Source: Paraflavitalea sp. CAU 1676
GTDB taxonomy: Bacteria > Bacteroidota > Bacteroidia > Chitinophagales > Chitinophagaceae
NCBI RefSeq assembly: GCF_029223285.1
Contig: NZ_JARHUJ010000014.1
Location: 1-64,000 of the forward strand
Reading direction: 5' to 3'
DNA: 64,000 bases
Below the pieces are notes generated by a model, which worked only from the letters and a program-made list of their open reading frames with translations, ran no database searches and had not been told where the DNA came from. The position numbers and the translations under genes were made by a program. Within the stretch, counting starts at the first letter, position 1. Every line of letters begins with the position of its first letter. Positions 16,713 to 27,511 of this stretch are shown in pieces.

Positions 16713-17504
16713 ATGATGGTAATTGGCTATTTCGCGGCAGGCTTGATTGGTGTTGCGCTTGGCTTAACCGGCGGCGGGGGCTCTATTTTGACGATGCCTG
16801 TACTGGTTTACCTGTTTGGCGTGAGTCCGGTCGTTGCCGCTGCTTATTCTCTCTTCGTGGTGGGCTCTACCAGCCTGGTGGGCGCTGCCGGTAAGATCAA
16901 AGAGCAGCTGGTGAATGCACGTGCGGTTACCTATTTTGGTCTTCCTTCCTTACTGGCTGTTTTTGTTACGCGCAAATGGATCATGCCTGCCCTGCCAGAT
17001 GTTTTCTTTTATGCAGGTTCCTTCCCCTTTACCAAATCGCTTTTCACCCTGCTGTTGTTCAGCGTGCTCATGATCATGGCCGGTGTGGCTATGATCGCGA
17101 ATAAAACGATGCATACAGACGATGAATCCGGTGCCAGTCCCTGGTGGCGGATTGCCAGTCAAGGGATATTTACCGGCCTGGTAACTGGCCTGGTAGGCGC
17201 CGGCGGCGGCTTCCTGATCGTTCCAGCGCTTATGTGGATGTTGAAACTGCCGGTTAAAACAGCGATTGGCAGCTCGCTGGTGATCATAGCCATCAACTCG
17301 CTGGCTGGTTTTGCCGGCGATTTGATGAATTACCCGATAGAATGGGGATTTGTGTTGCCAATTGCCGCTATGGCGGTGGCTGGTATCTTCATTGGTAACC
17401 GGCTGCAAAGGTTCATCAAGGCAGATGTGCTCAAAAAAGCCTTTGGCTGGTTTGTATTGGCGATGGGTATCTATATCATTATCAAAGAGTTGCTGTTTAA
17501 ATAA
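16713..17504 (+). CDS. TauE/SafE family sulfite/organosulfur exporter
   Basis: Inner-membrane permease of 263 residues with about eight hydrophobic helices and the glycine-rich family signature near the N-terminus (GLIGVALGLTGGGGSIL), repeated near the middle as GLVTGLVGAGGGFLIVPAL. This internal duplication is typical of the family. Members export sulfite, sulfoacetate or related anions. Here it lies between the Crp/Fnr regulator and a persulfide dioxygenase whose product is sulfite, so sulfite export is the natural reading. It has its own promoter and operator. Met codons at 16713 and 16716 are both possible starts. Confidence 0.9.
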   Translation: MMVIGYFAAGLIGVALGLTGGGGSILTMPVLVYLFGVSPVVAAAYSLFVVGSTSLVGAAGKIKEQLVNARAVTYFGLPSLLAVFVTRKWIMPALPDVFFYAGSFPFTKSLFTLLLFSVLMIMAGVAMIANKTMHTDDESGASPWWRIASQGIFTGLVTGLVGAGGGFLIVPALMWMLKLPVKTAIGSSLVIIAINSLAGFAGDLMNYPIEWGFVLPIAAMAVAGIFIGNRLQRFIKADVLKKAFGWFVLAMGIYIIIKELLFK

Positions 17505-17510
17505 CGTATA

Positions 17511-17522
17511 TGACGCAGGTCA
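17511..17522. promoter_or_regulatory. Crp/Fnr-type operator of the persulfide dioxygenase operon
   Basis: TGACGCAGGTCA, extended to ATGACGCAGGTCAT (17510-17523), again TGAC-N4-GTCA. It begins 7 bp after the tauE stop codon. From its end to the start of CAATTTTGTG (17546) the step is 24 positions, identical to the tauE promoter. Confidence 0.7.
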
Positions 17523-17545
17523 TGGTTTACCTGCCTGTAATTAAA

Positions 17546-17553
17546 CAATTTTG
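17546..17553 (+). promoter_or_regulatory. -7 element of the persulfide dioxygenase promoter
   Basis: CAATTTTG followed by TG, identical to the tauE promoter element. The first possible start codon of the next gene (GTG at 17553) overlaps this box, which supports the ATG at 17586 as the true start. Confidence 0.55.
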
Positions 17554-17585
17554 TGGCTGAACCATTATTAATAAAAAGGGTCAAT

Positions 17586-19004
17586 ATGAAAATAGAGCAA
17601 ATTTATACGGGATGTCTGGCGCAGGGCGCCTACTATATTCAGTCGGGCAAGGATGCTGCGGTGATCGATCCGCTGCGCGAGATCCAACCTTATATCACAA
17701 AGGCTGCTGCCAACGGCGCTACCATCAAATATATTTTTGAAACGCATTTTCACGCCGACTTTGTTTCGGGCCATATCGACCTGGCGAAAGCTACGGGCGC
17801 CACCATCGTATACGGGCCACTAGCAGCTCCTGCCTTTGCAGCGCATATTGCCAAGGACAATGAAGTGTTCAAACTAGGTGATATCACCATTAAAGTATTG
17901 CATACGCCGGGCCATACCATGGAATCGACCTGTTATCTGCTGGCCGATGAAGATGGTAAGGACACTGCTTTGTTTTCGGGTGATACTTTGTTCATTGGCG
18001 ATGTGGGCCGGCCCGACCTGGCGCAGAAAGCAGCGCATATGACGCAGGAAGAACTGGCGAGTACCCTGTTCGATTCGCTGCGCTCTAAGATCATGCCCCT
18101 GGCAGACGATGTGGTCGTTTACCCGGCGCATGGTGCAGGATCGGCCTGCGGAAAGAACATGTCGAAGGAGACTTCTGATTCGCTGGGTCGTCAAAAACAA
18201 TTCAACTACGCGCTGCGGGCAGATATGACGCGTGATGAATTCATTAAGGAAGTTACTACCGGTTTAATGCCACCGCCAGCTTACTTCCCGCAAAACGTGA
18301 AAATGAACCGGGAAGGCTATGAGAACATCGCCGATGTGCTGAAACATGGTACGCAGGCTTTATCGGTGGATGCTTTTGAAGCTGCTGCCAATGAAACCGG
18401 TGCTTTGATGCTTGACACCCGCGCTCCCGAAGTTTTTGCGCAGGGCTTTATTCCCAACTCTGTGAACATTGGTATCGATGGCAATTTTGCGCCTTGGGTA
18501 GGGGCGTTGATCACCGATATATACCAGCCTATTTTGATCATTGCAGAAGAAGGTCGTGCCGAAGAAGTGGTGACCAGGCTGGCGCGTGTTGGCTACGATC
18601 ACTCTATTGGCTATCTGCAGGGCGGTATCGATGCCTGGCGCAAGGCAGGGAAGGAAGTGGATGTTATTGAATCCATCACGGCCGAAGAACTGGGAGCCCG
18701 ACTGGCAAAAGTTCCTGGACTTCCTATTGCGGATGTGCGCAAGGAAAGCGAATATTTTTCCGAACATATTGTGGGTGCGGAAAATATGCCGCTTGATTAT
18801 GTCAACGAACAGGTTTCGAAACTGGATAAGAACAAAACGACTTATATTCACTGTGCCGGAGGCTACCGTTCGATGATCTTTAATTCCATTTTGCGGGCAA
18901 GAGGTTTCGATAAGCTCGTGGATGTTAAAGGTGGCTTCAAATCGATCAAGGATAGCGGCCAGTTCCACATCACCGATTACGTTTGTCCTACGACAATGCT
19001 CTAA
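17586..19004 (+). CDS. CstB-like persulfide dioxygenase with pseudo-rhodanese and rhodanese domains
   Basis: Non-haem iron enzyme that oxidises low-molecular-weight persulfides to sulfite and transfers sulfane sulfur. In the 472-residue protein, residues 1-245 form the metallo-beta-lactamase fold: THFHAD (His54, His56, Asp58), His110 in HTPGH, Asp133 in SGDTLF and His182 in YPAHG. Residues about 265-360 form a rhodanese-like domain whose active loop (AEEGRAEE) has no cysteine. Residues about 372-465 form a second rhodanese with an intact loop CAGGYRS, Cys423. The order dioxygenase, dead rhodanese, live rhodanese is that of S. aureus CstB. It heads an operon with the two YeeE halves. Confidence 0.92.
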   Translation: MKIEQIYTGCLAQGAYYIQSGKDAAVIDPLREIQPYITKAAANGATIKYIFETHFHADFVSGHIDLAKATGATIVYGPLAAPAFAAHIAKDNEVFKLGDITIKVLHTPGHTMESTCYLLADEDGKDTALFSGDTLFIGDVGRPDLAQKAAHMTQEELASTLFDSLRSKIMPLADDVVVYPAHGAGSACGKNMSKETSDSLGRQKQFNYALRADMTRDEFIKEVTTGLMPPPAYFPQNVKMNREGYENIADVLKHGTQALSVDAFEAAANETGALMLDTRAPEVFAQGFIPNSVNIGIDGNFAPWVGALITDIYQPILIIAEEGRAEEVVTRLARVGYDHSIGYLQGGIDAWRKAGKEVDVIESITAEELGARLAKVPGLPIADVRKESEYFSEHIVGAENMPLDYVNEQVSKLDKNKTTYIHCAGGYRSMIFNSILRARGFDKLVDVKGGFKSIKDSGQFHITDYVCPTTML

Positions 19005-19019
19005 ACTTTTAATGTACAC

Positions 19020-19592
19020 ATGAATCAATTCATTGAATGGATCAGGCAGCCCTGGCCCTGGTATGTGGCGGGCCCCCTGATCGGCTTAACCGTTCCTGCC
19101 CTGTTATTACTGGGTAACAAACATTTTGGTATTTCGGCCAACCTGCGGCATATCTGTGCGATGTGTTTGCCAGCCAATATCCCTTTCTTTCAATACAACT
19201 GGCGGCGCGAGGCGTGGAACCTGGTGTTTGTTGCCGGCATCGTGCTGGGTGGCGTATTGTCGGCCTGGTTGTTGGCCAACCCTGCCCCTGTGCAGGTCGA
19301 TGCAGCGTTGGCCAGCGAACTGGCGGGTTATGGTATTACGAACTTCGATAGGCTGACGCCGCCGGAGATCTTCAGCTGGCCGCAGTTGTTTACTGCGCGT
19401 GGTTTGTTGATGATGGTGGGCGGTGGTTTCCTGGTGGGCTTTGGCACGCGCTACGCGGGTGGTTGCACCAGCGGCCATGCGATCACGGGCCTCAGCATGC
19501 TGCAATGGCCATCATTGGTGGCAACGGTGTGTTTTATGGTGGGTGGCCTGGCCATGGCCAATCTTATTTTACCATTCATTTTATCCTTATAA
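19020..19592 (+). CDS. YeeE/YedE family transporter, N-terminal half
   Basis: Integral membrane protein of 190 residues corresponding to one half of the single-chain thiosulfate channel YeeE. The conserved GGCTSGH motif is at 147-153, with Cys149 as the residue expected along the conduction path; Cys46 and Cys49 lie in [11 protein letters not shown]. It follows the persulfide dioxygenase by 15 bp and is followed 3 bp later by the second half, so the two are translated together. A role in moving thiosulfate or another sulfur species across the inner membrane is inferred from family and neighbours. Confidence 0.87.
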
Positions 19593-19595
19593 GTT

Positions 19596-20090
19596 ATGCA
19601 ATCGACTGTTGATACAGACTTTGAAGTACGCACGCAGGATACGGTATGTGTGAACGAATCGCAACTGACGCACAAATGGTATCACAATATCAAGTACCTC
19701 GTTGTAGGAATATTGTTTGGGATCGTTTTCGTGAAAGCGGAGATCGTGAGTTGGTTCAGGATCCAGGAGATGTTCCGTTTTCAGAGCTTCCACATGTACG
19801 GCGTGATCGGCTCGGCAGTGGTGGTGGGTATTATCTCTGTGTGGCTGATCAGGCGTTTCAATATCAAAACTATTTATGGCGAGTCTGTCGTGTTCCATAA
19901 AAAGCAATTCAATAAAGGACAGATCTATGGTGGCCTGCTGTTTGGTCTTGGCTGGGCGGTTACTGGTGCCTGTCCGGGTCCGTTGTTTGCACAGATCGGT
20001 ACCGGCGCTACGGTGATCATCATTATGTTGCTGAGTGCGGTGGCCGGCACCTGGGTTTACGGGCGTTTTCGCGACAAGCTGCCCCACTAG
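19596..20090 (+). CDS. YeeE/YedE family transporter, C-terminal half (DUF6691)
   Basis: Membrane protein of 164 residues completing the split YeeE transporter. The GACPGP motif at 125-130 (Cys126) matches the second cysteine motif of full-length YeeE. About four helices are visible, with a hydrophilic N-terminus of about 30 residues. It is the last gene of the persulfide dioxygenase operon; the next gene starts 94 bp later and is functionally unrelated. Confidence 0.85.
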   Translation: MQSTVDTDFEVRTQDTVCVNESQLTHKWYHNIKYLVVGILFGIVFVKAEIVSWFRIQEMFRFQSFHMYGVIGSAVVVGIISVWLIRRFNIKTIYGESVVFHKKQFNKGQIYGGLLFGLGWAVTGACPGPLFAQIGTGATVIIIMLLSAVAGTWVYGRFRDKLPH

Positions 20091-20184: not shown

Positions 20185-20715
20185 ATGAAAAGACAAGTTG
20201 TTCTGTTCATCGCCATGAGTATCGATGGGTACATTGCCAAAGATGAAGATAATATTGATTTCCTGTCGATCGTTGACCGTCCGGGTGAAGACTATGGGTA
20301 CCTGGATTTTCAGCAGTCTGTAGATACAGTTATCTGGGGCCGCAAAACGTACGACAAGCTCCTGTCGTTTGGTGTTGAATTTCCGCATAAGGACAAGAAG
20401 GTATATGTGCTGTCGAGGTCGAAGACAGGTGCCGATGAAAATGTACAATACTTCAATGCACCTATCAAAGACCTCATTGCGCTGATACGCGAGCAACCAG
20501 GCAAGCATATTTATTGCGATGGTGGCGGTGAGGTGGTGTTTGAATTGTTGAAAGAAAAGCTGATCGATAAGATGGTCATTTCTGTTATTCCGCACCTGGT
20601 AGGCAATGGTGTACGTCTCTTTAAAGACGGAAGACCCGATCAGGAGTTGACGCTTTTGCGCAGTATCAGTTATCCTTCGGGACTGGTGCAATTGTGGTAC
20701 GATGTAAAAGGCTGA
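20185..20715 (+). CDS. Dihydrofolate reductase / RibD C-terminal domain family protein
   Basis: Small NADPH-binding reductase-fold protein of 176 residues. It begins VLFIAMSIDGYIA, the usual start of YwjB/YyaP-type proteins, has WGRKTYDKL near residue 52 and YCDGGGEVVFELL near 112, and ends with the typical PSGLVQLWYDV. These proteins resemble dihydrofolate reductase and the RibD reductase domain, but their substrate is generally unknown and they do not replace folA or ribD. The gene is followed by a strong terminator at 20738 and appears monocistronic. Confidence 0.85.
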   Translation: MKRQVVLFIAMSIDGYIAKDEDNIDFLSIVDRPGEDYGYLDFQQSVDTVIWGRKTYDKLLSFGVEFPHKDKKVYVLSRSKTGADENVQYFNAPIKDLIALIREQPGKHIYCDGGGEVVFELLKEKLIDKMVISVIPHLVGNGVRLFKDGRPDQELTLLRSISYPSGLVQLWYDVKG

Positions 20716-20737
20716 TCGATATGATCTAAGCATAGTG

Positions 20738-20768
20738 AGCTGTCCGGAAACACCGGGCAGCTTTTTTT
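20738..20768 (+). terminator. Rho-independent terminator
   Basis: Stem AGCTGTCCGG / CCGGGCAGCT with a 5-nt loop (AAACA), one G-T pair, followed by a run of seven T. It lies 22 bp after the stop codon of the RibD-like gene and insulates the next operon. Confidence 0.9.
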
Positions 20769-21020
20769 ATGGGCGTTGTGTAAACGTTTATTGGAATGGG
20801 CTAAGAATGAGCCAATTGCAAAGGTGTAAAATATTTTTGCCTGTTACCTGTAATATTTTTGTTTGGGCTACTACACGACGTTAGTTGCATGCATTTGCAA
20901 AAAAATATTTAAATATTCTACGTGTAACAATTCTTATTCACTCCACACTGATGTATCAACAATGCAGTTGAATACCTCGCATACCATGCAACACTAATTA
21001 TTACATAAACATTTCATTCC
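20769..21020 (+). promoter_or_regulatory. Upstream region of the coiled-coil/OmpA/ABC operon with two -7 boxes
   Basis: This region separates the terminator at 20768 from the first gene at 21021. It contains two exact TAnnTTTG matches 22 bp apart, TATTTTTG at 20832-20839 and 20854-20861, both preceded by GTAA(A)A, and a 14-bp perfect palindrome AATATTTAAATATT at 20904-20917. If a -7 box is used, the leader is 150-180 nt. No riboswitch-like fold was recognised. Confidence 0.5.
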
Positions 21021-21704
21021 ATGCTTAAAAGTTGGAAACATCTGTTTGTAAAAACAGATGAACCCACTGCTGGAAAAGAAGAAGCTATTGAAGCTTTCTC
21101 CTTACCGGCCAGTGAACCTATTGCCCCAGCTGCGGGAAAAAGCAGTATAACTCCGGTCAAAGCTCAGGATGCCGCTGTGTCGGAAGTTATTGAAGTCTAT
21201 GAATCGGGCCTGGAGTCGATCAATATGCCAGGGTACGACTTCTATGAGTTCTACCAGGCGATCACCATTACCGGCCAAACAGGCGAGCATACCTATCAGT
21301 TAGCTTTCCAGATGGCGCGGTCGATGGACAAGACGATCACCGTGCAAAAGCTTTTGCAGGATGCCGAGTTCTACATCAGCAAGATCAATGAGGTACACGG
21401 ACAGTATGTAGGGCAGGGACAGTCTAAGCTGCGGTCGCTGGAAGAAAAAAAGCTGGCCGAGAAAGGTCAGCTGCAAAGTGAGATCGATCAGGGAGCAGCA
21501 CGGATTGCGCAGCTGCGGGCAGAGTTACAGCAGCTGGAGTCGACTGTGGGTCAGCAGAAAGGTATGCTGGCGAAGATCGATGAAGGGTTTGCGCCGCAGG
21601 AGCGATCGGTACGCGAGAAGCTGGCTGCCAATGATGCGGCGCGCAGTATCAGTATCGAAAAGTTACAGAAGATCCGGGAGGGCATTTCCCGGTTCATTAA
21701 ATAA
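21021..21704 (+). CDS. Soluble coiled-coil protein of unknown function (first gene of the operon)
   Basis: A 227-residue protein without signal peptide or membrane segment. Residues 1-55 are low-complexity (Ala/Glu/Pro/Ser-rich). Residues about 58-125 look like a small helical domain (GYDFYEFYQAITITGQTGEH). Residues about 125-225 form a strong coiled coil rich in Glu, Lys, Gln and Leu. I do not recognise a family. It is 23 bp upstream of the membrane-anchored coiled-coil gene and shares its orientation, so a physical partnership is plausible. Likely cytoplasmic. It resembles PspA-like proteins only in its helical character. Confidence 0.75.
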   Translation: MLKSWKHLFVKTDEPTAGKEEAIEAFSLPASEPIAPAAGKSSITPVKAQDAAVSEVIEVYESGLESINMPGYDFYEFYQAITITGQTGEHTYQLAFQMARSMDKTITVQKLLQDAEFYISKINEVHGQYVGQGQSKLRSLEEKKLAEKGQLQSEIDQGAARIAQLRAELQQLESTVGQQKGMLAKIDEGFAPQERSVREKLAANDAARSISIEKLQKIREGISRFIK

Positions 21705-21727
21705 AAACCAATAACACCCAAATAAAC

Positions 21728-22840
21728 ATGTCAGCAGAAACAAACAAGGTGCTTGAGCTTCCTATTCTTAAGCACTTTGAAAAAAATCAGATCACCCTGA
21801 ATCCAAAGAATTGGAGAAAGGGAGAGAAAGGTATCGCCTGGATCGTGGGCCTTGTTCTACTAGGCACCATGGCCTGGGGGCTGTACCAATACATTTTGCC
21901 CATTGTATTTACCTGGATAGGACAGGCGTTGGGCGCCATTTCGGCTGCCGTGCTGGTGATCGCCTTCTTTATTATGCTGCCGGTACTGGTTAAGGCACTG
22001 AAGAAGATCTCGCGGTCGATGCACAAGGCCTTGATCCGTCATGATCCTTTCGGCGAGCTGGAAGAGCAAAAAGAAAAGATGGTGCAAAACAGGGTTCAGT
22101 TCAAAGAAGCGAAAGCCAAGATCAAAGCGATCAAATCGAATATGGAATCCGAATCGATCAAAGCGGAGAAAGAAGCGAAGGACTACCAGGATAAAGTAGT
22201 GAACCTTCAATCGCGTGCTACCACTACCAAGCAAAAGATGCAGGAACTGGAGAAACGTAAAGGAGAAGCAGCGGCTAAGGAAACAGACGAGTATGTGGAA
22301 CTGCAAACCAATATGATGAAAACGCTAAGCGAAGCGCAGCGGGTGAGTCATATGCTGAACCAAAGCACCGGCCTGGTACGCAAATACGGTAGCCGTGCGC
22401 ACGTGATCGGTAAGCTCGACAAAAAGCTGAACATAGTGGATACGGCCATGGAGATCAAGATCGCTGACTTTGAAGTGAGTATCGATATGTTGAAGAAGGA
22501 ATACGCTTTTGCACAGGCCGCGCGTAATGCAACGGAACAGGCTAAGAGTGCGATGCTGTTCACCAAAGGCTGGGAATTGGAATATGCGCTGGATGTGGTT
22601 ACTGATACCATCGCCATTGACCTGGCCACTACCCGTGAAAACCTGTTGGACCTCGACTCTTTGACCAGTCAGTACTCGCTGGACAGCGATGAGCTGTACA
22701 GTAAGCTGGATACACTGGCCGATCAGATCAAGACCGACAATTATGACATCCCTGCTTCCAAACAATATAGCAATCCCAATTACCAGCTTTCGCAGGAAGA
22801 TAAAATGGAAAGCAAAGGTTTTGGTGACATATTCAATTAA
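21728..22840 (+). CDS. Membrane-anchored PspA-like coiled-coil protein
   Basis: A 370-residue protein. Residues about 36-62 and 66-92 are hydrophobic and form either a two-helix hairpin or one long anchor. They are followed by a basic stretch (KALKKISRSMHKALIRHDP) and a long coiled coil (about 108-290). The pattern after the membrane part, DPFGELEEQKEKMVQNRVQ then repeated Lys/Glu heptads, recalls PspA/IM30 helices, but I cannot confirm homology. The C-terminus (about 330-370) is polar. It lies between a soluble coiled-coil gene and an OmpA-fusion gene, 19 bp before the latter. An inner-membrane scaffold role is inferred. Confidence 0.75.
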   Translation: MSAETNKVLELPILKHFEKNQITLNPKNWRKGEKGIAWIVGLVLLGTMAWGLYQYILPIVFTWIGQALGAISAAVLVIAFFIMLPVLVKALKKISRSMHKALIRHDPFGELEEQKEKMVQNRVQFKEAKAKIKAIKSNMESESIKAEKEAKDYQDKVVNLQSRATTTKQKMQELEKRKGEAAAKETDEYVELQTNMMKTLSEAQRVSHMLNQSTGLVRKYGSRAHVIGKLDKKLNIVDTAMEIKIADFEVSIDMLKKEYAFAQAARNATEQAKSAMLFTKGWELEYALDVVTDTIAIDLATTRENLLDLDSLTSQYSLDSDELYSKLDTLADQIKTDNYDIPASKQYSNPNYQLSQEDKMESKGFGDIFN

Positions 22841-22859
22841 TCCCTTAAATACTAATAAA

Positions 22860-24656
22860 ATGAAATGGTCAAGTTTAACCTTATTTTCTAAATCACTCAT
22901 CACACTGGTATTGGCCGGTGGTATTGGTGGTGCTGTATATTATCTCTCACCCGGTTTGCGGGTGGATGAATCAAAATCGGTGGAGAAACTGAATCTTTCC
23001 GATAAAGATGTAAACAATGTGGTTACGTCGGCAGAATTGCCCTTACCGGGCGACGCGCCTTCTACCACGGTTAATGGTAAACCGCTTGTGCGTATTGCCG
23101 GCTATGCGTGGAATGCGCAGTCGGGTATCATCGTGGCCAATGGTGGTCCGAAGACGGCTACCGGCTCAGTGATGGAGTCGAATGGCGTAAACCTCGAGAT
23201 CATCCGCCAGGACTGGCTCTCGGAACTGCGTAACCTGCAGATGAAATTCGTAGATGAGTTTGACAAGGGGAACAGTTTTCCGAAAGAAGGTGCGGCAGGC
23301 ATCATGATCATGGGTGATGGCGTGCCATTCTATATCAGCTCAGCACAACAGGCGCTGGATGACAAATATGGCGCAGGTAAGTATCAGCTGCAGGCTGTGG
23401 GTGCTATCGGTTTGAGTTATGGTGAGGACAAGCTGATCGGGCCACCGAGCTGGAAGATGAACCCTCAATCGATGAAGGGTGCACTGGTATCGGCGGTGAT
23501 CGGTGATGGTGACTGGGTTACTGCGGTGAACTACGCTTCTGCCAATGGTATCAAGATCAACCCCGACCCTTCGACCTATGATGCGGAGGCGGTCAACTTT
23601 CTTGCTTCGGCCAACGATGACTATATCGAATCGGCGAAGGAGCTGATCAAGTCACAAACACAGGGCTGGACAGTGCCCCTGAAAGAAGTGAAGGCTGGAA
23701 AGCTGACGGGTAAAACCATCGATAAGAAGGTGGACGGTTGTGCCACCTGGACACCCGGTGATAAGATGGTGTTTGATGCGTTGAGCGGTTTTACCGACGT
23801 GGTGTCGACGAAAGAGTTCAATAATCAAATGGCGGCGACGATCATCTTCCTGCGCCAATGGGCGGATGCTAACAAGCAAATAGTGAGCAATATCCTGAAG
23901 TCATCCTATGCAGCTTCGAACCAGATGAAGCAATACGACAACTGGCGGAAGCGTGCTTCAGAAACCACTGCAAAGTCGTTCAATATGGAAACGCCTGCTT
24001 ACTGGTATGCAATGTTCAAAGGTCAGCAGGGCGAGAAGGGCGGCGTATCGTACAATATGGGTGGTTCGCGGGTGTTCAACCTGGCGGATGCCAACCAGTA
24101 CTATGGTATTTCGGACGGTACCAACCGATACAAGGCGGTGTATGACCAGGTATCCCGTTACCTGAAAGACCTGAACCCTGCAGGGTTTAACCAGAACGTG
24201 AAGCGTGTTGTGCCTTATGAAGAGGCGGTGAACATGGCGTTTCTGAAAGACGTGAAAGATATCGATGCGGGAACTACTTATGCCACCGATTATTCGAAGA
24301 AAGCCACCAATGTGATGGCTTCGGGCGAATGGAGGATCAACTTCGAGTCGGGAAGGGCTGCTATCCGTCCGGAAGGAAAGGATGTGCTGGAGCAGATCTA
24401 TAACCTGCTGGTGCAGGCAGAAGACTCCAAACTGGAGCTGGTAGGCCACACCGACAATACCGGTACGCAGGATGGCAACTACGCTTTGTCGACTGCGCGT
24501 GCTGAGGCTGTGAAGAATTACCTCATCGCCAAAGGGATTCCTGCGGACCGATTCCAGAAGATCGATGGCCGCGGGCAGGATGAGCCTGCTGCCGATAACA
24601 GTACAGCTGCCGGTAAGGCAAAGAACAGGCGCGTGGTGATCAGCTTGTTGAAGTAA
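22860..24656 (+). CDS. Solute-binding-like domain fused to an OmpA peptidoglycan-binding domain
   Basis: A 598-residue envelope protein with an N-terminal hydrophobic anchor (about 12-30) and no lipobox. Residues about 70-460 resemble a type II periplasmic solute-binding protein of the NitT/TauT class (for example VRIAGYAWNAQSGIIVANGG). Residues about 485-598 are an OmpA C-terminal domain with INFESGRAAI, GHTDNTGTQD and STARAEAVKNYL, containing the Asp and Arg that grip diaminopimelate. This would tether a solute receptor between inner membrane and cell wall. I chose the ATG at 22860 because the upstream extension overlaps the previous gene in another frame. It precedes the permease and ATPase genes. 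Confidence 0.85.
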   Translation: MKWSSLTLFSKSLITLVLAGGIGGAVYYLSPGLRVDESKSVEKLNLSDKDVNNVVTSAELPLPGDAPSTTVNGKPLVRIAGYAWNAQSGIIVANGGPKTATGSVMESNGVNLEIIRQDWLSELRNLQMKFVDEFDKGNSFPKEGAAGIMIMGDGVPFYISSAQQALDDKYGAGKYQLQAVGAIGLSYGEDKLIGPPSWKMNPQSMKGALVSAVIGDGDWVTAVNYASANGIKINPDPSTYDAEAVNFLASANDDYIESAKELIKSQTQGWTVPLKEVKAGKLTGKTIDKKVDGCATWTPGDKMVFDALSGFTDVVSTKEFNNQMAATIIFLRQWADANKQIVSNILKSSYAASNQMKQYDNWRKRASETTAKSFNMETPAYWYAMFKGQQGEKGGVSYNMGGSRVFNLADANQYYGISDGTNRYKAVYDQVSRYLKDLNPAGFNQNVKRVVPYEEAVNMAFLKDVKDIDAGTTYATDYSKKATNVMASGEWRINFESGRAAIRPEGKDVLEQIYNLLVQAEDSKLELVGHTDNTGTQDGNYALSTARAEAVKNYLIAKGIPADRFQKIDGRGQDEPAADNSTAAGKAKNRRVVISLLK

Positions 24657-24779
24657 TGGCGGAAGATTGCGTGGATTTGATGTGTGGAGAAAAGCCATAG
24701 TGGGTCGGATTGAATTATTGGCAGTGTTGGGTTGGTGGAGCGGGATGCTCACATTTCGAAAAATTTATTCAATGAATCA

Positions 24780-25556
24780 ATGGAAATAAAAAAATGGCTC
24801 CGGCCTTTTGAGACAGTCGACCGAAAGCAGCAGTTGTTGATCGGTGGTGTGTGGTTGCTGCTGGTGTTGGGCTATTGGTTCTTGTCTTCGGCGGGGAACA
24901 AGCATTTGTTCCCCACGCCGGGACAGGTGTGGGATGGGTTTCGATCGCTGTACGATGAAGGGCTGGTGGTACATATTGGTAGTTCTTTAGGGCTGTGTTT
25001 ACAGGCAACGTTGTTGTCGATCCTGATTTCACTGGTGATCGTGTATTTGTCGCCCCTGCCAGCGATCAGGCCTTTGGCGAGCGCTTTCAGCAAGCTGCGT
25101 TACCTGCCGCTCACGGGTATCACGTTCTATCTCGCCATTCTCGTAAAAGATGCGCGTACGATGCAGGTAAGTGTGCTATTCATATTCATGAGCCTTTATT
25201 TTATCACGTCGCTGCTGGCTGTGCTGAAGGATATTCCTGCCGATGAGATCGACCATGCCCGCAGTTTGAAATGCAGCCGTTGGGAAGTATTGTGGGAGGT
25301 GGTGATCAAAGGGCGGCTGGATTATGTGATGGATGTATTGCGACAGAACCTTTCTATTACCTGGATGATGCTGGTAACAGTGGAGTCGATCCTGGTGGCG
25401 GCGGGTGGTTTGGGGGTGTTGATCAAGAACAGCGATAAGTTCATGAACCATGGCCGCATTGTAGCGCTGCAACTGGTGATCCTGCTGGTGGGCTTGTTGC
25501 TGGACCGCGTGCTGCACCTGGCCCGTAAGTCTTTCTTTAAATACTCAACTTTTTAA
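24780..25556 (+). CDS. ABC transporter permease, NitT/TauT type
   Basis: Inner-membrane permease of 258 residues with about six helices. The cytoplasmic EAA-like loop is visible in DEIDHARSLKCSRWEVLWEV near residue 160, the contact site for the ATPase. It is most like SsuC/TauC-type permeases. I chose the ATG at 24780, which gives MEIKKWLRPFE. It begins 123 bp after the OmpA-fusion gene with no terminator between, and ends 3 bp before the ATPase start, so the three are probably one operon. The substrate is unknown. Confidence 0.88.
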   Translation: MEIKKWLRPFETVDRKQQLLIGGVWLLLVLGYWFLSSAGNKHLFPTPGQVWDGFRSLYDEGLVVHIGSSLGLCLQATLLSILISLVIVYLSPLPAIRPLASAFSKLRYLPLTGITFYLAILVKDARTMQVSVLFIFMSLYFITSLLAVLKDIPADEIDHARSLKCSRWEVLWEVVIKGRLDYVMDVLRQNLSITWMMLVTVESILVAAGGLGVLIKNSDKFMNHGRIVALQLVILLVGLLLDRVLHLARKSFFKYSTF

Positions 25557-25559
25557 TCG

Positions 25560-26411
25560 ATGATGGTGATCCCTTATGAACAAAAGGATACGATCCTGCA
25601 TGTAGAGAACCTTTGTGTTAGCTACGGCGACCGGATTATTTTGCAGAACGTGAACATGGTGGAAAGAGATACTATTCGGGAGGGCAAAACGCAGGGGCAG
25701 GTGATTGCTGTGCTGGGCAGGTCGGGCCGTGGTAAATCGACCTTGTTCCGCGCGTTGACGGGCCTGGAAAAGCCCAGTTCGGGTAAGGTATTGATCCCTG
25801 ATTTCAATAAAGTGGCAGCCAATGGTAAGCAACCCGCCAAGCTGGTACAGGAGGGTGATGTGGGTTTTGTAAACCAGAAGTATACTTTGTTCAGGCACAA
25901 AACGGTGTATGAAGCGCTGTGGTTTGCTATGCGGAAGAGTGGTTTTTCCAAAGCTGAGAAAGAAGATGAGATCATGCATTACCTGAAAGAGTGGGGGCTG
26001 GAGAAACACAAGGACCAGTACCCGAATTTTTTATCGGGCGGTCAGCGGCAGCGGACGGCTATCCTGGAGCAGTTGCTGAGCTCAGGGTACTATATGGTGC
26101 TCGATGAACCTTTTTCGGGATTGGATATCGGGAATATCATGAGTGTGAAGAAATCTTTTGACCTGATCAGTCAACGGCACGATCTGAATACGATCATCTT
26201 CAGCACGCACGACATTGAGCTGGCTGTTGAACTGGCGGATTCGATCTACATACTCGGGTATCCGCCCGATGACAAAGGGCAGGTGCTGGCTTCAGGTACG
26301 ATGTTGAAGCATTTCGATCTGAAGGAATTGGGCCTGGCCTGGCAGGATGGGTTTACGGAGAGCCATCACGATTGTGTGCAGGAGATCAAGGAAATTATGT
26401 TACGAGCTTAG
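25560..26411 (+). CDS. ABC transporter ATPase, NitT/TauT type
   Basis: A 283-residue nucleotide-binding subunit. Walker A is GRSGRGKST (53-61), the Q-loop is around 106, the signature LSGGQRQR is at 158-165, Walker B YMVLDE at 178-183 with catalytic Glu183, and the H-loop His217 is in FSTHD. A basic insert between beta strands (about 36-47, DTIREGKTQG) is slightly longer than usual. All catalytic parts are intact, so it should power the adjacent permease. It is the last gene of the 21021-26411 cluster; no clear hairpin terminator follows before the convergent gene at 26553. Confidence 0.93.
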   Translation: MMVIPYEQKDTILHVENLCVSYGDRIILQNVNMVERDTIREGKTQGQVIAVLGRSGRGKSTLFRALTGLEKPSSGKVLIPDFNKVAANGKQPAKLVQEGDVGFVNQKYTLFRHKTVYEALWFAMRKSGFSKAEKEDEIMHYLKEWGLEKHKDQYPNFLSGGQRQRTAILEQLLSSGYYMVLDEPFSGLDIGNIMSVKKSFDLISQRHDLNTIIFSTHDIELAVELADSIYILGYPPDDKGQVLASGTMLKHFDLKELGLAWQDGFTESHHDCVQEIKEIMLRA

Positions 26412-26552: not shown

Positions 26553-27356
26553 TTATTGTTTTTGTACGGTCAGGCCTTCGCCGGGTACCCATTTATCGTA
26601 CTCCATATAAGTGGCTACGTTGCGGGCTGTTTCTTCGCCGCGGATCTTTGCCACCAGGTGCAGCGCCCCGTCGATACCGGCAGATATGCCCGCTGTGGTG
26701 ATCACTTTTCCATTGTCGACAAAACGAACATTGGATAAGACCTTCGCAGTGGGCACTGCTTTTTTCAGGTTATCGATGCTTTCGTGGAAAGTGGTTACGG
26801 TGAGGTGATCGAGCAGTCCGGCTTTGCCCAATATGAAGGCGCCGGTACATACCGAGAAATAGTAATCGGGCGTGGGTTGTTTTTTAAGCCAGTCAATGAC
26901 CTGCGGGTCGCTGCTCGCTACACCTGCATTGCCACCGAAGAAGGCGATGATATCGGCCTTGGGTGCATCTTCGATGCTGTAATCGGGTAATATTTTCAGG
27001 ATGCCCTGTGACACGATGGGGGCCTTGGTTTTGGATACGGTAAATACCTCAAACTGGGCATAAGCAAATACTTCCATGGGGCCGGCGAAGTCCAGTACTT
27101 CCACACCGTTCTGCAGGTAAAATGCCACTTTCAGCTTCTTCTTGTTCATTGTCTTTTTGTGTTCGTTGGATGTTTGTTGTAACAATGTCATTCCGCAATG
27201 CGGGCATTTGCCGGCTGCTGCGAAGGTGATGGTGTCGCAGGAGTTGTTGCAGGGCATGCAATACCAGGCTTTGGCAGTTTGTGCCTGTGCGGCTATCGGC
27301 TGGTGCCTGACGATGAGCGAGAGGAGAATGAACAGGTGGATCAATGTTTGTTTCAT
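26553..27356 (-). CDS. Exported DJ-1/PfpI-like protein with an N-terminal zinc ribbon
   Basis: A 267-residue protein: signal peptide (about 1-26, ending IAAQAQ), a four-cysteine zinc-ribbon-like module (WYCMPCNNSCD and KCPHCGMTL, about 31-58), and a DJ-1/PfpI domain (about 75-250) with the nucleophile Cys in SVCTGAFILG. DJ-1-fold proteins are usually cytoplasmic, so export is unusual. The cysteine module resembles heavy-metal-binding ribbons of copper-handling proteins. I chose the ATG at 27356 because a perfect -7 box lies just upstream (27371-27378), which rules out the start 72 bp earlier. It lies downstream of a GlxA-type regulator with a homologous domain. Function unknown. Confidence 0.8.
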   Translation of the reverse strand: MKQTLIHLFILLSLIVRHQPIAAQAQTAKAWYCMPCNNSCDTITFAAAGKCPHCGMTLLQQTSNEHKKTMNKKKLKVAFYLQNGVEVLDFAGPMEVFAYAQFEVFTVSKTKAPIVSQGILKILPDYSIEDAPKADIIAFFGGNAGVASSDPQVIDWLKKQPTPDYYFSVCTGAFILGKAGLLDHLTVTTFHESIDNLKKAVPTAKVLSNVRFVDNGKVITTAGISAGIDGALHLVAKIRGEETARNVATYMEYDKWVPGEGLTVQKQ

Positions 27357-27370
27357 GGCTATACTTTTCA

Positions 27371-27378
27371 CAAATCTA
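27371..27378 (-). promoter_or_regulatory. -7 element of the exported DJ-1 gene
   Basis: CAAATCTA on the plus strand is TAGATTTG on the minus strand, an exact TAnnTTTG match, 14 bp upstream of the chosen start codon. Confidence 0.5.
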
Positions 27379-27511
27379 CCATTGAATAGCCTGGGCGGGC
27401 AGGACAGGATGGCGCAGTTTTGGGACAAAGTTCACGGACAATAATGTCGGGTCACCGGAGTGCGAGGGGAAGCTCAGTGTGTGCGGAGGGTGATCCGGAT
27501 AAAATGGCCGT

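Follow-up and report, generated by a model that had tools for sequence, protein, structure and literature searches.

A conserved five-gene block of Paraflavitalea that may couple a wall-linked receptor-transporter to a PspA/ESCRT-III-like membrane scaffold

Within a stretch of 64,000 nucleotides from the 8.8-Mb genome of Paraflavitalea sp. CAU 1676 (NCBI RefSeq assembly GCF_029223285.1, contig NZ_JARHUJ010000014.1, positions 1 to 64,000; hereafter the window), five open reading frames (ORFs) on the plus strand, designated A to E, were found in this order within 21021-26411. They encode two coiled-coil proteins (A and B), a receptor with a predicted peptidoglycan-binding end (C), and the permease (D) and ATPase (E) of an ATP-binding cassette (ABC) transporter. 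The set proved genuine and is often co-inherited, and we regard it as about an even proposition that the block would encode a wall-linked receptor-transporter coupled, through the membrane anchor of C, to a PspA/ESCRT-III-like membrane scaffold of A and B. The order and approximate coordinates had been proposed in an earlier, sequence-only reading of this DNA; all five genes were recovered, with the starts of C and D corrected. The genes are as follows:

21021..21704, plus strand: gene A, 227 amino acids (aa); no transmembrane (TM) segment; conserved N-terminal half, then a coiled coil
21728..22840, plus strand: gene B, 370 aa; hydrophobic stretch at about 35-95, then a long coiled coil
22860..24656, plus strand: gene C, 598 aa; anchor helix at about 8-26, putative binding-protein domain, OmpA domain at about 495-590
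24780..25556, plus strand: gene D, 258-aa ABC permease (BPD_transp_1)
25560..26411, plus strand: gene E, 283-aa ABC ATPase; Walker A, signature and Walker B motifs

The most likely start of C is the ATG at 22860, an ORF from 22689 being one that would overlap gene B, and that of D is most likely the ATG at 24780. Intergenic gaps measure 23 (A-B), 19 (B-C), 123 (C-D) and 3 nucleotides (D-E), and the first gene 3' of the block lies on the opposite strand. A scan for hydrophobic segments returned none in A or E, one region in B (35-95), one in C (8-26) and several in D. Gene B is present in single copy in the host genome, as is gene C, matches to its OmpA end aside.

Gene C matched 14 loci in named genome records, the closest named relatives by C identity being a Niastella metagenome-assembled genome (90%) and Paraflavitalea pollutisoli (88%; Chitinophagaceae, Bacteroidota). 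Niastella yeongjuensis (L005) and Flavihumibacter petaseus (L003) are among the relatives that carry the block. All five genes were found whole at 12 of the 14; the other two lie at contig ends, with gene A cut in one (L010) and the contig starting inside C in the other (L013; L-numbers denote surveyed loci and G-numbers surveyed genomes, G000 being the host). The genes flanking the block recur at only 2 of 25 compared loci, and the conserved unit is therefore the five genes. Among 296 genomes of the phylum, strong C matches were found in seven, each with B adjoining C; this count omits two weak matches, in G158 (a Ppx-like protein) and G185. A search of 149 genomes of the order identified C, by the profile termed A1, in 12 (four of them weakly, with expectation values (E) of 1e-4 to 8e-4) and B, by a search with 27 B members, in 39. 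All 12 genomes with C also encode B (Fisher 2.5e-8, kinship not corrected for), A and B adjoining C in 10 of them and B lying elsewhere in the genome in two; in G427 and G346, C-D stands apart from A-B, with B encoded elsewhere in the same genome. The A1 profile, the only one applied to the 110 B-less genomes of the order, found no C in them, and it misses a second type of C. This second type adjoins B in 13 further genomes (G386, G413, G332, G402, G404, G353, G370, G391, G392, G365, G371, G414 and G409) and stands apart from B in G296. The gene caller was crude, and longer antisense frames can mask genes, as happened to B in L036 and probably to E in L035 and L048; the absence of D or E at a single locus is therefore not firm.

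The modules are nonetheless separable. Many loci hold A-B pairs, or B alone, without C, D and E. The linkage of coiled-coil and ABC genes expected by the sequence-only reading thus held in part: A-B occurs without C-D-E, although C went with B in all seven strong cases of the phylum and in all 12 of the order. On a tree of 54 B proteins, on which several long branches were flagged, an adjacent C was assigned to 32 and lacking from 22, with 12 changes of this label, at least eight of them forced by well-supported branches; the clade of the window's B has an adjacent C in 12 of 13 cases. Among the B loci counted as lacking C is L152, whose OmpA protein is generic, and the genes labelled "E" at L151 and L152 resemble ATPases of a generic kind. 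Genomes of family f2 often carry two B copies: one copy adjoins second-type C in G365, G371, G409 and G414, and the other copy lacks an adjacent C in the three that were fetched (G365, G409 and G414). Five loci (L054, L140, L141, L156 and L188) encode A-B-C without adjacent D-E; the transporter is hence not the only partner that the receptor accompanies, the coiled coils being another. Our reading of these arrangements is that A-B is the core, that C joins A-B and that D-E joins C. That the A-B pair and the C-D-E transporter are instead two independent units, co-transcribed by chance, is improbable; the 22 B loci without adjacent C and the C-D genes of G427 and G346 would fit such an arrangement, which is opposed by the lack of C (A1 profile) from the 110 B-less genomes and by the existence of A-B-C without D-E.

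The sole Pfam match above cut-off on the window's C is its OmpA domain (7.2e-21). The T-D and N-x-x-L-S-x-x-R residues of this domain were invariant in all 17 aligned C proteins, among them D532 and R547, which we take to be the Asp and Arg of the OmpA-like peptidoglycan-binding site, and the domain is assigned as an OmpA-like peptidoglycan-binding domain. By eye, the helix at 8-26 is followed by neither a lipobox cysteine nor an obvious cleavage site, and it is therefore taken as an uncleaved N-terminal anchor, the remainder of C being predicted to be periplasmic. The sequence-only reading of a receptor bearing a membrane helix at its N-terminus and ending in a peptidoglycan-binding domain was thus borne out; the solute-binding label stands through aligned relatives. 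The NMT1/THI5-like cut-off was passed by C of L053 (1.5e-13), L055 (4.3e-12) and L049 (1.7e-4), and no such match was found on the window's own C or on its relative L034. Across the binding part of the 17 aligned C proteins, four of which are 17-19% identical to that of the window, 16 residues are invariant. The binding-protein domain of the window's C is accordingly weak on its own sequence and borne by these relatives. An AlphaFold model computed from the window's C and 13 close homologues (14 sequences) did not reach a quality fit for a fold search (pLDDT 50.2, pTM 0.43). No PDB entry matched a C profile from which OmpA had been removed, and residues 1-485 of the window's C had no match among plasmids. 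At two loci (L142:6943-8085 and L143:7386-8600, both minus strand), an OmpA-less binding protein with a lipobox-like cysteine is encoded between B and C; two predicted receptor versions are encoded together there.

Permease D matched BPD_transp_1 (5e-8), and the closest NCBIfam models were SaoP, TauC and NtrB (7e-15 to 4e-12, each under cut-off); it is assigned to the NitT/TauT class, as had been suggested. ATPase E matched ABC_tran (1e-24) and has the motifs GRSGRGKS, LSGGQRQR and YMVLDEP, which argues against the block being purely a scaffold. Walker A and B are present in 20 related ATPases; a signature pattern missed eight of the 20, seven of which do show a signature (LSGGQLQR, or ISGGQKQR in L011), the eighth being L148. 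The EAA loop of the permease is altered in first-type systems: its Pro is absent in 13 of 13 and its Gly in nine of the 13, including the window, whereas both are kept in all eight second-type permeases and in a Vibrio permease discussed below. The permeases without either residue are those of the window, L001, L003, L009, L031, L033, L047, L049 and L050.

Like the NitT/TauT importers TauABC, SsuABC and NrtABC, the block has one permease, one ATPase and, in relatives, an NMT1-type binding domain; unlike them, it has a receptor with a membrane anchor and an OmpA tail, coiled-coil partners and the altered EAA loop. It is possible, though doubtful, that the block encodes an ordinary importer of this class, for a small anion, a sulfonate or a similar nutrient, the OmpA tail doing no more than hold the receptor near the wall, with A and B as assembly or regulatory helpers. 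The sub-threshold matches of D, the motifs of E, the NMT1-like domain and invariant residues of C, and the extra lipoprotein-like binding protein at L142 and L143 would all suit such an importer; the loss of EAA-loop residues from first-type permeases, to which second-type permeases form a contrast, and the A-B-C units without adjacent transporter speak against it. The altered loop could also point to a mechanical or signalling device in which ATP turnover, gated by the wall-held receptor, would drive the A-B scaffold, somewhat in the manner of FtsEX, which drives wall enzymes. We consider such a device unlikely; that the anchor of C also occurs on a protein other than a binding protein (see below) is in its favor, but D falls in an import class and no sign of uncoupling was seen.

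Neither A nor B matched any family above cut-off in Pfam and NCBIfam scans. In the B family, in which Pro107 is invariant (27 of 27 members), the commonest Pfam match was PspA_IM30, found at E<=0.1 in 10 of 27, the next family being found in four. The best such match (E 7e-7, 29.5 bits) lies under the curated cut-off of 33.9 bits, which no B protein reached; the B proteins of the window and of L034, L049, L098, L099 and L103 had no PspA_IM30 match. For the three members compared by coordinates (L035, L053 and L094) the register agrees, B aligning from about residue 92-99 with the model from position 23 onward, and none of three reversed-sequence controls matched. A PspA profile applied to the 27 B proteins and their reversals gave 6e-5 for L003, 7e-4 for L047 and 0.013 for the window, against 0.054 for the best reversal. 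By HHalign, whole B against four PspA proteins scored 2.3% (B 103-231 with PspA 23-149), and the coiled-coil part alone 0.3%, against 0.2% for a reversed control; A against PspA gave nothing. The low-confidence model of B is a long hairpin (helices 109-178 and 187-276), for which Foldseek placed Vipp1/PspA (6zvr) at rank 20 (E 0.31); BAR domains headed its matches, which included Vipp1/PspA and CHMP1B and span a range common for helical bundles. The PspA-like appearance ascribed to B by the sequence-only reading was thus recovered as a remote similarity, always sub-threshold and without a PspA_IM30 match for the window's own B, and the profile comparison it had proposed yielded little for PspA and nothing for TelA. 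B is probably, if as yet unproven, remote kin of PspA/ESCRT-III hairpins.

The BAR, SMC and chemoreceptor coiled coils matched in fold by the B model were not accepted as its kin. Nor is B detectably a TelA protein (HHalign 0.2-0.3%): TelA (PF05816) had no match to the window's B at E<=1, was absent from the 25 of 42 matched families shown for the 27 B proteins, gave nothing with A by HHalign and had no match in the host genome. Like PspA/IM30 (Vipp1) and ESCRT-III (Snf7), B is predicted, at low confidence, to be a coiled-coil hairpin beside the membrane, with weak similarity in one register; unlike them, it has an N-terminal TM region, its match is sub-threshold, and the host has a separate PspA (G000:C1:790013, 131.7 bits), as do four of 19 sampled relatives, host included. 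Two more genes, of about 228 and 240 aa and alike at their starts, follow the host's true PspA in three genomes (L057:1474-2184, minus strand; L090; L091). In two genomes (L098:8835-9338 and L103:7740-8240, both minus strand), the vicinity of B includes a gene for a hydrophobic, roughly 167-aa protein that no Pfam family matched.

New here is the finding that a Ppx/GppA-like protein bears the anchor helix seen in most C proteins. An anchor profile made from 32 distinct C N-termini (31 residues; consensus about LTxFSKxLITLxIVG) was searched against the N-terminal 70 residues of 1581 proteins predicted at loci of at least 3 kb, overlapping loci repeating some of them. Outside C, it found one family only down to E 8e-4, the next match being at 0.0076; within C, the start has diverged in G253, G420, G166, G072 and G328 (0.0006 to no match). 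Its L068 member matches a Ppx/GppA-like domain below threshold (22.2 bits, cut-off 27, E 1.1e-4); no such match was found in the L103 member itself. At E below 1e-37, the family is present in 15 of the 149 genomes, and B occurs in 12 of these 15 (Fisher 6e-6, kinship again not corrected for). The protein bears the anchor in 13 of the 15, and 12 of these 13 have B, the exception being G321; the two genomes with an anchorless relative (G311 and G396) have no B. At L103, a locus of the phylum sample, the gene directly adjoins A-B; L068 was first noticed through its anchor, and L103 through this position. At L105 and nine fetched loci (L193-L201), no A, B or C adjoins it. Anchored members, mostly solitary genes, are:

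L103:8333-9397, minus strand: anchored Ppx/GppA-like protein
L105:8723-9745, plus strand: anchored Ppx/GppA-like protein
L160-L172 and L187: further anchored Ppx/GppA-like proteins

As a tentative extension, A-B might be a general membrane platform that recognizes one anchor helix on interchangeable periplasmic modules, C-D-E being one and the Ppx/GppA-like protein another.

Operons of a similar kind have been described (mSystems 2024; PMC11237479). They encode homologues of Snf7 and PspA with TM segments, one AAA+ and one ABC ATPase, a permease and a PBPB-OmpA protein (for example, OGG56892.1); in Bacteroidetes, another coiled-coil protein, the third, lies close to PspA and Snf7. A link between remodelling and transport was proposed there. 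As far as the available text of that article goes, the window block is an AAA+-less variant of this operon kind, with B as a candidate counterpart of its Snf7/PspA proteins: it likewise combines a binding protein with OmpA (the former through relatives), an ABC ATPase, a permease and a TM coiled coil, and differs in lacking an AAA+ gene, in the separability of A-B and in the recurrence of the C anchor on the Ppx/GppA-like protein. No AAA+ gene was found among the five genes or at 19596-20090, 20185-20715 and 26553-27428, the rest of 15-33 kb being covered by reading only and relatives not being searched. The earlier statement that no characterized system has this set holds as regards experiment, a literature search having returned no recognizable experimental study of such a gene set, and not as regards the description of similar operons (PMC11237479).

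A related layout was found on the Vibrio megaplasmids pSEA2 and pIFO15640, where one run encodes an ATPase, a solute-binding protein (SBP) with OmpA, a vWA protein, a second SBP-OmpA, a 257-aa protein in which reading showed hydrophobic and coiled-coil parts, TelA, one more binding protein and a permease:

L058:7408-17507 and L059:7401-18235: Vibrio megaplasmid run; a PRTRC gene is not far away

The C profile without OmpA matched the first SBP at 2.6e-19 and 2.3e-20 and the second at 1.5e-6 and 9e-6. As in the window, an ABC ATPase, a permease and OmpA-ended binding proteins (two in Vibrio) lie beside coiled-coil proteins; unlike the window, TelA and vWA proteins stand in the place of A and B, and the first SBP has a sub-threshold OmpA match (19.8 bits) and a start resembling, by eye, a signal peptide. 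By HHalign, the 257-aa protein matched none of PspA, A and B. Since the runs share the receptor and coiled-coil layout, OmpA-ended receptors beside coiled coils form a wider theme.

Around the block, the following elements were noted:

20737..20763, plus strand: terminator-like hairpin upstream of gene A (consensus match only)
20832..20861, plus strand: two TANNTTTG motifs, at 20832 and 20854; candidate promoter element (pattern match only)

The two motifs correspond to the Bacteroidota -7 element; since a pattern search found no TTG 17-23 nucleotides ahead of either, they are candidates only. Downstream, 26553-27428 (minus strand) encodes a DJ-1/PfpI-family protein with a heavy-metal-binding domain match on its N-terminal side. 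A sulfur-related run lies 5' of the block at 16713-20090; its gene at 19596-20090 matches Sulf_transp and DUF6691, and the remainder, by reading, comprises TSUP-like, metallo-beta-lactamase with rhodanese and second YeeE-like genes. The sulfur-transport-like gene at 19596-20090 was overlooked in the earlier statement that no known substrate gene is adjacent. The last three genes of the run are present at only two of the 25 compared loci (L001 and L002), and the upstream gene therefore gives little information on the ligand and was dropped as a substrate clue; its poor conservation is a further point against an ordinary importer. A role in anti-phage defence is highly improbable: PADLOC gave generic matches only (ZorB for the OmpA domain, mads_3 and further ATPases for E, and a JetC coiled coil for B, at 1.8e-5) and none to the characteristic part of any defence system, and reading of related loci showed no recurring defence or mobile neighbours.

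Should the coupling of receptor-transporter and scaffold hold, C would sit in the inner membrane, capture a small ligand with its periplasmic binding domain and grip peptidoglycan with its OmpA domain; anchored at both ends, the receptor would thereby be fixed over a D2E2 transporter, in which the single permease and the single ATPase each presumably form a homodimer. The anchor helix of C would pack against the TM helices of B, a hairpin of the PspA/ESCRT-III type with its own TM segment, which would assemble with A on the cytoplasmic face. A and B probably brace or shape the membrane, and the scaffold that they form may be tuned by ligand and ATPase state, or by strain on the wall link.

To our knowledge, how bacterial PspA/ESCRT-III-like scaffolds learn of events outside the membrane is largely an open matter. 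If the proposed coupling is true, a membrane-wall receptor genetically tied to such a scaffold would make that link testable in innocuous soil bacteria, with the shared anchor helix as a direct handle. Were A-B also a platform for interchangeable modules, the arrangement would amount to a new class of system for signalling or remodelling across the envelope, with a TM-bearing ESCRT-III-like scaffold at its centre.

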